Part shown: one piece after another, positions 11,558 to 12,076 of the stretch
Layout of the letters: every line of letters begins with the position of its first letter
How positions within the stretch are numbered: the first letter of the stretch is position 1
DNA from: Roseivirga sp. E12
Lineage (GTDB): Bacteria > Bacteroidota > Bacteroidia > Cytophagales > Cyclobacteriaceae
NCBI RefSeq assembly: GCF_017592825.1
Contig: NZ_JAGFMD010000011.1
Location: 1-64,000 of the forward strand
Length of the DNA stretch: 64,000 nucleotides
Direction of reading: 5' to 3'
Translations under genes and position numbers: made by a program
Notes under the pieces: model-generated
The model's database searches: none
Seen by the model: the letters and a program-made list of their open reading frames with translations, nothing else
Told to the model about the DNA's origin: nothing

Positions 11558-11586
11558 TACCTTTGAAACAGTTTCAAACGTGAAAC
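11558..11586 (+). promoter_or_regulatory. Predicted promoter overlapped by a 17-bp palindrome, ahead of the tRNA-like array
   Basis: TACCTTTG (11558-11565) matches the -7 box. It is overlapped by TTTGAAAC-A-GTTTCAAA (11562-11578), a perfect inverted repeat, and a further GTTTCA/TGAAAC pair (11571-11586). Transcription would begin near 11572, about 30 nt before the first tRNA-like unit. The overlap suggests repression of this promoter by a dimeric protein. Confidence 0.5.
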
Positions 11587-11603: not shown

Positions 11604-11725
11604 TGTAGGATGACGAAATAGGCAGCCGTGCCCTCCTTTCCCGGGGGTGGAGAATAAGAGATAAATTAAACTACCTAAGTAAAGCTAATCTCTCCGTGAA
11701 GGTTCGAGTCCTTCTCCTACAGCCA
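11604..11725 (+). ncRNA. tRNA-like RNA, copy 1 (class II cloverleaf with giant variable region)
   Basis: A tRNA cloverleaf can be drawn by hand. Acceptor TGTAGGA (11604-11610) pairs with TCCTACA (11715-11721), followed by G73 and an encoded CCA (11723-11725). The D stem is ACG/CGT with an AAATAGGCAGC loop. The anticodon arm is CCCTC-CTTTCCC-GGGGG (11631-11647). The T arm is GAAGG-TTCGAGT-CCTTC (11698-11714). Between the anticodon and T arms are 50 nt (11648-11697), where normal class II tRNAs have roughly 10-20. The loop would present TTC as anticodon but has a pyrimidine at position 37, and the conserved A21 is C. I therefore call it tRNA-like, not tRNA-Glu. Confidence 0.65.
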
Positions 11726-11752
11726 AATGTTTTAGTATGATTAGTAATTGTC

Positions 11753-11788
11753 AATGATGAGTGCCTCAGCAATCAGGCGCTCATTATT
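11753..11788. other. Hairpin between the two tRNA-like units
   Basis: AATGATGAGTGCCT (11753-11766) pairs with AGGCGCTCATTATT (11775-11788) with two G-T pairs and an 8-nt loop. No T run follows, so termination is doubtful; it may be a processing or attenuating structure. Confidence 0.45.
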
Positions 11789-11796
11789 AAATACAC

Positions 11797-11906
11797 TGTA
11801 GGGTGACGAAACAGGCAGCCGTGCCCTCCTTTCTCGAGGGTGGAGGTTCTGAGATAAAGCCAATCGGCCTAATCACTCCGTGGAGGTTCGAATCCTTCTC
11901 CTACAG
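11797..11906 (+). ncRNA. tRNA-like RNA, copy 2
   Basis: The fold is the same as copy 1: acceptor TGTAGGG (11797-11803) with TCCTACA (11899-11905) and G73 at 11906; D stem ACG/CGT; anticodon arm CCCTC-CTTTCTC-GAGGG (11824-11840); T arm GGAGG-TTCGAAT-CCTTC (11882-11898). The first 40 nt match copy 1 with two differences, whereas the variable region (41 nt, 11841-11881) is diverged yet still closes by GGAG/CTCC and holds an inner GCC/GGC hairpin. CCA is not encoded (CAT follows). Stems are kept despite sequence change: GAGGG instead of GGGGG in the anticodon arm and compensated T-stem changes. Confidence 0.65.
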
Positions 11907-11912
11907 CATTTC

Positions 11913-11943
11913 AAAAAGGAAACCATTTCGGTTTCCTTTTTTT
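11913..11943 (+). terminator. Rho-independent terminator after tRNA-like copy 2
   Basis: The stem AAAAAGGAAACC / GGTTTCCTTTTT has an ATTTC loop and a seven-T tail. It lies seven bases after copy 2, supporting a transcribed RNA unit that ends here. Confidence 0.85.
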
Positions 11944-11956
11944 GTATACTTTCTCT

Positions 11957-12045
11957 GGATGAGAACCTCGGTTCGATCCCGAATTCTCGGGACACGAGGG
12001 ACAGTGCGGCATGCCTTGCGTGTATGGTAATCCTTCTCCTACAGC
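11957..12045 (+). other. Degenerate third tRNA-like unit (T-arm-like segment plus 3' end)
   Basis: AATCCTTCTCCTACAGC at 12029-12045 is identical to the 3' end of copy 2 (11891-11907), but no matching 5' acceptor strand exists here. A separate T-arm-like segment TCGG-TTCGATC-CCGA lies at 11968-11982, and TCCCGA-ATTC-TCGGGA forms a hairpin around 11977-11992. This looks like the relic of a further copy or a recombined tRNA 3' fragment. Confidence 0.5.
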
Positions 12046-12049
12046 TTAG

Positions 12050-12076
12050 CCCAACCTTGCCAAGGTTGGGGTTTTT
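12050..12076 (+). terminator. Rho-independent terminator closing the tRNA-like region
   Basis: CCCAACC-TTGCCAA-GGTTGGG is followed by a short T run, directly after the third 3' end. Confidence 0.8.

Follow-up and report, generated by a model that had tools for sequence, protein, structure and literature searches.

In the accessible parts of PMC4206432 and PMC9976931, tRNA-dependent asparagine synthesis is described on a decoding tRNA-Asn, and amidation by GatCAB relies on the U1-A72 pair of the carrier. Asp identity, as the available text of PMC9976931 gives it, consists of G73, G34, U35, C36 and C38, with G2-C71 as a minor element; bacterial tRNA-Asp also has a functional G1-C72 pair (PMC9976931, same portion). 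In E. coli, the regulator AsnC activates the divergent asnA gene and is damped by asparagine (PMC8707732, in its accessible part). The window analyzed here (the whole 64,000-nt stretch from Roseivirga sp. E12) contains, next to a gene for an AsnC-type regulator, two members of a family of tRNA-derived, covarying RNAs of 109-211 nt that are reported by neither Rfam nor ARAGORN (Table 1). The family is apparently undescribed; a literature search, which covered mostly open-access papers and included the accessible part of PMC7609411, found no paper on it. We think it somewhat probable that this RNA is a non-decoding carrier on which Asp is converted to Asn, so that the RNA and GatCAB together replace AsnB.

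Both window copies have a 7-bp acceptor stem, a 3-bp D stem, a 5-bp anticodon stem with a 7-nt loop, a 5-bp T stem with a TTCGA T loop, and G73; the V region is 50 nt long in copy 1 and 41 nt in copy 2. A preliminary description of this DNA had proposed two tandem class II cloverleaf units with a TTCGA T loop, G73 and an oversized variable region of 41-50 nt, and had noticed the CCA encoded by copy 1: all of these are present in the sequence. It had also remarked on a TTC anticodon in a Leu/Ser-like body, and indeed the copies carry U34, giving the Glu-type anticodon UUC, on a body whose D arm and V-arm base match tRNA-Leu. The first 40 nt of the two copies differ at three positions (7, 16, and 38), not two as had been stated; and the C reported in place of A21 does occur in the D loop, but it is not peculiar to these copies, since members of the family have either A or C there. 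A third 3′ end (12,029-12,045) is, as claimed, identical to that of copy 2, exactly over 17 nt; the unit to which it belongs is, judging from its sequence, probably either a remnant or a tRNA-frame RNA that has diverged, and another genome (G057, locus L010) has a piece with this 3′ end at the corresponding place. The stem and T run that follow copy 2, noticed before as well, are likely a terminator; the scan that named the hairpin at 12,050-12,070 omitted the stem at 11,913. Upstream of copy 1 is a TAnnTTTG box, which we take to be a promoter element of the Bacteroidetes -7 type, overlapped by an inverted repeat that is possibly an operator or a leader hairpin. The genome has two strong matches to our covariance model R1, both in the window, plus three matches to ordinary tRNAs, and it also has ordinary Asp and Glu tRNAs. 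Elsewhere it contains a cluster (G000:C11:1263130-1263858), possibly of mobile origin, with a second tRNA-Asn(GTT) that has G1-C72, a tRNA-Ile(TAT), and a tRNA-Cys.

Table 1. Features of the RNA locus (positions in the 64,000-nt window), and small RNAs with the trailer GGTTATTTTGGGTTTATTGTTAAT at other loci.
Feature	Position	Strand	Remarks
AsnC-type regulator gene, 155 aa	10980-11447	-	divergent from the RNA
TAnnTTTG box TACCTTTG	11558-11565	+	upstream of copy 1; read in the sequence
Inverted repeat TTTGAAACAGTTTCAAA	11562-11578	+	overlaps the TAnnTTTG box; found by eye
tRNA-like RNA, copy 1	11604-11723	+	encoded CCA up to 11725; 118.7 bits, covariance model R1
Copy 1 acceptor stem	11604-11610 / 11715-11721	+	
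Copy 1 anticodon arm	11631-11647	+	loop 11636-11642, CUUUCCC
Copy 1 V region	11648-11697	+	
Copy 1 T arm	11698-11714	+	
Copy 1 3′ end	11722; 11723-11725	+	G73; CCA
tRNA-like RNA, copy 2	11797-11907	+	125.8 bits, covariance model R1
Copy 2 anticodon arm	11824-11840	+	loop 11829-11835, CUUUCUC
Copy 2 V region	11841-11881	+	
Copy 2 T arm	11882-11898	+	G73 at 11906
Stem and T run 3′ of copy 2	11913-11948	+	arms 11913-11924 / 11930-11941; inverted-repeat scan
Third unit	11951-12045	+	only the last 17 nt as in copy 2
Terminator-like hairpin 3′ of third unit	about 12050-12075	+	
GGTTATTTTGGGTTTATTGTTAAT-trailer small RNA	L017:1897-1982		
GGTTATTTTGGGTTTATTGTTAAT-trailer small RNA	L035:1869-1964	-	
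GGTTATTTTGGGTTTATTGTTAAT-trailer small RNA	L108:304-415		
GGTTATTTTGGGTTTATTGTTAAT-trailer small RNA	L163:5760-5817	-	
GGTTATTTTGGGTTTATTGTTAAT-trailer small RNAs, further loci	L234, L238, L239, L243, L244, L252-L254		

Single-sequence minimum-energy folding did not choose the cloverleaf for the window copies, and their energies (z of -0.61 and 0.21) were no better than those of shuffled sequences, so the cloverleaf rests on covariation. The stems, which the preliminary description expected homologues to keep, are kept: in an alignment of 30 homologues (29 distinct), 97.3% of the paired cells can pair and 13 of the 32 pairs show changes on both sides, and none of 500 shuffles did as well. With 98 distinct sequences, fitted to the covariance model and hence leaning to it, the figures are 97.5% and 22 of 31 pairs (again 0 of 500 shuffles). 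By covariation, then, the RNA has the cloverleaf of a canonical tRNA (RF00005), with a 7-bp acceptor stem and D, anticodon, and T arms. ARAGORN found no gene at the window copies, and Rfam gave no match to them at gathering score and no tRNA model even at E≤10; no ordinary tRNA is thus assigned there, as had been anticipated. Nor was anything found at 20 family loci by Rfam or at 27 by ARAGORN. Because both programs are silent on the loci tested, except for one variant lacking the V domain that ARAGORN called a tRNA-Asp, the family has probably been missed or mislabelled in genome annotation.

The family is widespread in Bacteroidota. BLAST searches with copy 2 gave matches, often in several copies, in 160 of the 196 genomes of its own family, representing 76 of 84 genera. 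Model R1, run over 395 genomes of the phylum, gave listed matches that fall into two groups, one scoring at least 87 bits (109-176 nt) and the other at most 64 bits (nearly all about 85 nt). The short matches of the weak group, when typed, were ordinary tRNAs, mostly tRNA-Leu; two odd members of this group are the second copy in G488, 178 nt long, and the G266 relative that has no V domain. Members of the strong kind occur in at least 39 of the 395 genomes (the best nine candidates of each genome were scored, and the table was read by eye). A pattern scan of named genomes found the RNA on at least 120 stretches; the matches among those listed include Chitinophaga, Hymenobacter, Pontibacter, Cyclobacterium, Algoriphagus, Saprospiraceae, and one Ignavibacteriales record. 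The G266 relative is only 77 nt long, and it retains the acceptor elements together with the loop CUAUCUC, that is, to judge by these positions, what AspRS and GatCAB would read.

We counted identity elements in 57 members that BLAST or covariance searches had found, with no loop pattern used in their selection. U1-A72, G2-C71, U3-A70, and G73 are invariant (57/57), and G1-C72 is found in none of them. The loops of 55 members could be parsed, by a parser that demanded U at position 35, a pyrimidine at 36, and C at 38 (the two others, L021 and L056, read TGTCTC by eye); their consensus is YNNUCYC, with U35, C36, and C38 in 55 of 55 each (U35 and C38 as demanded by the parser), and with G34 in 44. 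The elements of an AspRS substrate (G73, U35, C36, C38, and G2-C71) are therefore present, and so is the U1-A72 of a GatCAB substrate, in all 57. The loop is of another kind: position 37 is a pyrimidine in all 55 parsed loops, as had been noted for the window copies, and never a purine, and position 33 is U in 42 and another base in 13, so the U33 and purine 37 of decoding tRNAs do not characterize the family. At the sequence level, the RNA bears most of the AspRS identity set and the U1-A72 of GatCAB on a loop that looks unfit for decoding. An unusual tRNA that decodes Asp or Glu codons, or acts in frameshifting or recoding, would agree with the full tRNA fold and with the ordinary tRNAs found on 10 of the 12 viral loci that hold the RNA; we regard it as very improbable given the loops, the ordinary Asp and Glu tRNAs of the same genome, and the mistranslation of Asp codons that a GUC tRNA loaded with Asn would cause.

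The body of the molecule is Leu-like: its D arm, U44, and V-arm base (one purine, usually G, before U48) are those of the genome's own tRNA-Leu and unlike tRNA-Ser, while the A73 of tRNA-Leu is replaced by G73 in all 57 members. Two stems, one of 4 bp and a covarying one of 3 bp, make up the V arm together with a conserved internal loop (RAYAAA/CUAA) and a hairpin that varies. The V insert of 95 of 220 members, e.g., the long forms at L070, L075, and L197, carries a conserved hairpin GG[GA][UA]NGACCAC. This hairpin, together with the GCCGA and GUUGA-like motifs seen where the V insert is long, resembles parts of a bacterial Y-RNA or another Ro60-type RNP, a reading to which we give hardly any credence: the motif mismatches at one position, the hairpin is absent from 125 of the 220 members and from both window copies, and the acceptor stem is intact. 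Short (S) and long (L) forms also occur together in mixed tandem arrays, most of which begin with a short form (SL 7, SSL 1, SLS 1, LS 1, and LSSSL 1). Several other identities were rejected. The acceptor branch of tRNA-Sec and allo-tRNAs is 8/5, 8/4, or 9/3, and is ruled out by the 7-bp acceptor and 5-bp T stems; a seryl acceptor does not fit, as the V stem of the genome's own tRNA-Ser is flush with C48; an anti-Shine-Dalgarno mimic is contradicted by loci such as L040 and L052, where CCUCC is not kept; a target of colicin or Tgt is contradicted by the variation at position 34; and the idea of a bacterial SINE-like element was dropped.

Since the RNA has nearly all of the Asp-identity and amidation elements, we examined genomes for GatCAB, whose presence was judged by GatB. 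We searched 80 of the 395 genomes, all chosen by hand before any outcome was seen: 39 with the RNA, 33 same-class genomes without it, and eight of other classes (the RNA-negative controls thus being 41 hand-picked genomes out of 356). GatB scored over the cut-off in 39 of 39, 2 of 33, and 8 of 8, respectively. A laxer model search of 39 genomes, including the 33, showed that one of them (G284) has the RNA, so it was moved to the RNA-positive set, giving 40 of 40 versus 1 of 32; in that search the best rows are listed, and a badly bounded member could hide in another genome. The single exception, G236, lacks GlnRS and so needs GatCAB. AsnRS scores over its cut-off in all genomes of both same-class sets (39/39 and 33/33), and GlnRS in 33 of 39 and 32 of 33 (34 of 40 RNA-positive with G284). 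A genome with both GlnRS and AsnRS can decode without GatCAB. Of the same-class genomes that have these two enzymes, 34 of 34 RNA-positive and 0 of 31 RNA-negative ones have GatB (Fisher's exact test, 2.9e-19, which ignores kinship). The RNA and GatB also go together inside family f4 (seven genomes with, three without) and family f5 (11 with, two without), so their co-occurrence is not the product of one split alone. Two genomes of another class (G304 and G338) have GatB, GlnRS, and AsnRS, and the model search found no RNA in them.

We then consider the protein routes to asparagine. AsnA is found in three of the 39 RNA-positive genomes and in six of the 33 same-class genomes without the RNA. 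The broad AsnB model TIGR01536 has matches in 79 of the 80 genomes, over its cut-off in 69. The strict model of E. coli-type AsnB (NF006949, cut-off 499 bits) is passed by none of 38 proteins from 35 RNA-positive genomes (207-328 bits), including the four AsnB-like proteins of the Roseivirga genome, and by all 15 pattern-selected proteins from 15 RNA-negative genomes (601-807 bits); we saw by eye no split match of a true AsnB in the RNA-positive rows among the TIGR01536 matches listed. Five RNA-positive genomes (G057, G341, G380, G438, and G458) lack both AsnA and any TIGR01536 match over the cut-off, and all have GatB, GlnRS, and AsnRS. A TIGR01536 amidotransferase over the cut-off is found in 34 of the 39 RNA-positive genomes first searched and in G284; as proteins that fail NF006949 still pass TIGR01536, another kind of asparagine synthase is possible. 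In five RNA-negative genomes (G240, G307, G236, G222, and G200) the best AsnB-like matches fail NF006949 too. G236, G222, and G200 have GatB, while G240 and G307 do not, and a further RNA-negative genome, G212, has no GatB, no AsnA, and no TIGR01536 match over the cut-off; genomes such as G240, G307, and G212 have no asparagine route that we can name.

The commonest neighbor of the RNA, at 72 of 119 loci in named genomes, is a gene of the Lrp/AsnC type, which lies on the same strand as the RNA at none of the 72. The window protein scores 153 bits with the NCBIfam model of AsnC (under its cut-off of 227; the next best, LrpA, scores 82), its best PDB match is E. coli AsnC (2cg4, 9e-37), and it aligns with E. 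coli AsnC without gaps over 149 residues, 61 of them identical. The same holds for the AsnC-like proteins of the RNA loci generally: all 95 align to E. coli AsnC without gaps, with 37-46% identity (BLAST local alignments). As far as such alignments can tell, the commonest neighbor is a divergent ortholog of AsnC. A divergent AsnC-like gene lies within 1.5 kb at 96 of 174 loci, 121-180 nt away for 89 of the 114 RNAs concerned; none was found within that distance at the other 78 loci. In the window, 156 nt separate the AsnC-type gene from copy 1. At 49 of the 96 loci, the 75 nt upstream of the RNA contain a TAnnTTTG box, compared with 4.8 on average over 200 mononucleotide shuffles and four in the reversed sequence. 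At the 10 asnA loci of asnA-bearing genomes, no AsnC gene was seen in the 1.5-kb flanks, nor was one found on stretches L419 and L430. No gatCAB or aspS was seen by eye among the 16 commonest neighbor clusters. Other neighbors are genes that we take from their sequences to encode a TrmB-like protein (tRNA m7G methyltransferase), an acyl-CoA ligase, and SufB. The TrmB-like gene is downstream on the strand of the RNA at 16 of the 119 loci (in the range L070-L189), the acyl-CoA ligase gene is found at 15, as it is in the window, and SufB at 16.

The carrier that we propose would work as follows. The RNA, whose gene faces asnC across a shared upstream region, would be transcribed from that region under the control of AsnC; it would adopt the tRNA-type fold supported by covariation, and its ends would be processed. 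AspRS would load Asp onto it by way of the G73, U35, C36, C38, G2-C71, and usually G34 seen in the family, and GatCAB, with which the RNA co-occurs as judged by GatB, would read U1-A72 and amidate Asp to Asn on the RNA. The pyrimidine at 37, the relaxed position 33, and the large V domain would bar the Asn-loaded RNA from Asp codons; since a GUC tRNA loaded with Asn would put Asn at Asp codons, purine 37 may have been lost and U33 relaxed for this reason. Asparagine would finally be released or handed on, damping AsnC. Transcription, processing, loading, amidation, release, and AsnC control are all steps that we infer. This reading is weakest in that the window copies have U34, that G1-C72 is missing, and that it leaves the V domain without an explanation; its main rival is a regulatory role. 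The preliminary description had thought of a non-decoding tRNA mimic or a tRNA-derived family; covariation, distribution, and the loop all support a tRNA-derived family that looks unfit for decoding. Among the roles it offered, that of an aminoacyl donor outside translation agrees best with the GatCAB co-occurrence, the AspRS and GatCAB identity elements, and the divergent AsnC gene, none of which that description could draw on.

In the regulatory alternative, the RNA, charged or not, would bind AspRS, GatCAB, or AsnC and report the Asp/Asn status, as a decoy or as a scaffold of the amidation complex, and Asn would be made on the ordinary tRNA-Asn. The Roseivirga tRNA-Asn has U1-A72 and G73 and could, from these elements, carry Asn with a non-discriminating AspRS; the AsnC neighbor, the multiple copies in many genomes, and the conserved internal loop of the V arm would suit a sensor as well. 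We consider it unlikely, as a decoy would not need an intact acceptor end together with both identity sets, which are exactly what the V-less variant keeps, and as the co-occurrence with GatB suits a substrate at least equally. Donation to something other than free asparagine is also conceivable: staphylococci have a non-translating tRNA-Gly that donates to peptidoglycan, and the RNA could pass Asp or Asn (Glu or Gln in members with U34) to a lipid, peptide, or wall acceptor. The loading logic would be unchanged, and glutamate would be possible with the UUC of the window copies; still, the AsnC neighbor and the failure of the proteins tested as E. coli-type AsnB favor asparagine itself, and no such transferase was seen by eye among the 16 commonest neighbor clusters, so that we judge this reading quite improbable.

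Members of the family were also found in 12 viral contigs, three of them 170-326 kb long, and in one 636-kb huge-phage record that matched a viral member by BLAST. Ten of the 12 viral stretches also hold ordinary tRNAs, up to 14, so the family members mostly sit among tRNA genes in viral contigs. BLAST with copy 2 gave no match in plasmid and phage collections, and the V-insert hairpin pattern occurred in 34 viral contigs, in none of them as part of a family member (a script tested for the remaining RNA). A second viral RNA, whose interior is hypervariable within a nearly constant tRNA frame (AGTCAGGTGGCGGAATGGTAGACGC ... ACAGGTTCGAATCCTGTCCTGACTAC), was seen in IMG/VR on stretches L192, L194, L195, L198-L201, and L255-L374, with up to five on one stretch (L262). 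Its 26-nt 3′ end is found at no fewer than 144 sites on at least 120 viral stretches; among the sites listed, 131 have a 5′ mate by a loose test, and they comprise 126 distinct sequences of 71-225 nt. Genomes of the Roseivirga family also contain further small RNAs that have a similar acceptor and T arm and share a 24-nt trailer (GGTTATTTTGGGTTTATTGTTAAT) followed by a terminator, but have different interiors (Table 1); the trailer is exact at 23 of 23 listed sites, in 6 of 12 genomes, with no occurrence of a control pattern.

A broader proposal, that much of Bacteroidota and some viruses obtain free asparagine through an RNA-borne synthetase rather than through AsnA or AsnB, with AspRS loading the RNA, GatCAB carrying out the amidation, and AsnC acting as the switch, seems to us evenly poised between true and false. 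If the RNA is such a carrier, a tRNA has left translation altogether and serves metabolism; the RNA would be added to the known metabolic carriers, and the move of a tRNA out of translation and into metabolism could be put to the test. A dedicated RNA would also explain why many Bacteroidota keep GatCAB despite having GlnRS and AsnRS, and in viruses with this RNA the auxiliary metabolic element would be an RNA, not a protein.

Compared with known systems, the RNA shares with ordinary tRNA-Leu the D arm, U44, A14/A15, and a V stem with one unpaired purine before U48, and differs from it in having G73 rather than A73, no Leu anticodon, and a V region of 41-50 nt (in the window) or longer with its own internal loop and hairpin. 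Like the non-proteinogenic tRNA-Gly of staphylococci, the RNA would be dedicated to a task outside translation, with a different amino acid and a different body. The arrangement of asnC and asnA in E. coli, in the accessible part of PMC8707732, likewise has the AsnC gene divergent from the presumed target, whereas here an RNA gene occupies the place of asparagine synthetase A. The closest parallel is the route of non-discriminating AspRS and GatCAB on tRNA-Asn in Bdellovibrio, Deinococcus, and Thermus: as far as the available text of PMC4206432 describes it, AsnRS and GatB likewise occur together and the carrier likewise has U1-A72, and the two are also alike in that here GlnRS is present in 34 of 40 RNA-positive genomes, AsnA in 3 of 39, and E. 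coli-type AsnB in none tested. In contrast to that route (PMC4206432, same portion), the carrier here would be a separate, apparently non-decoding RNA with an Asp-type loop, so that a discriminating AspRS could load it.
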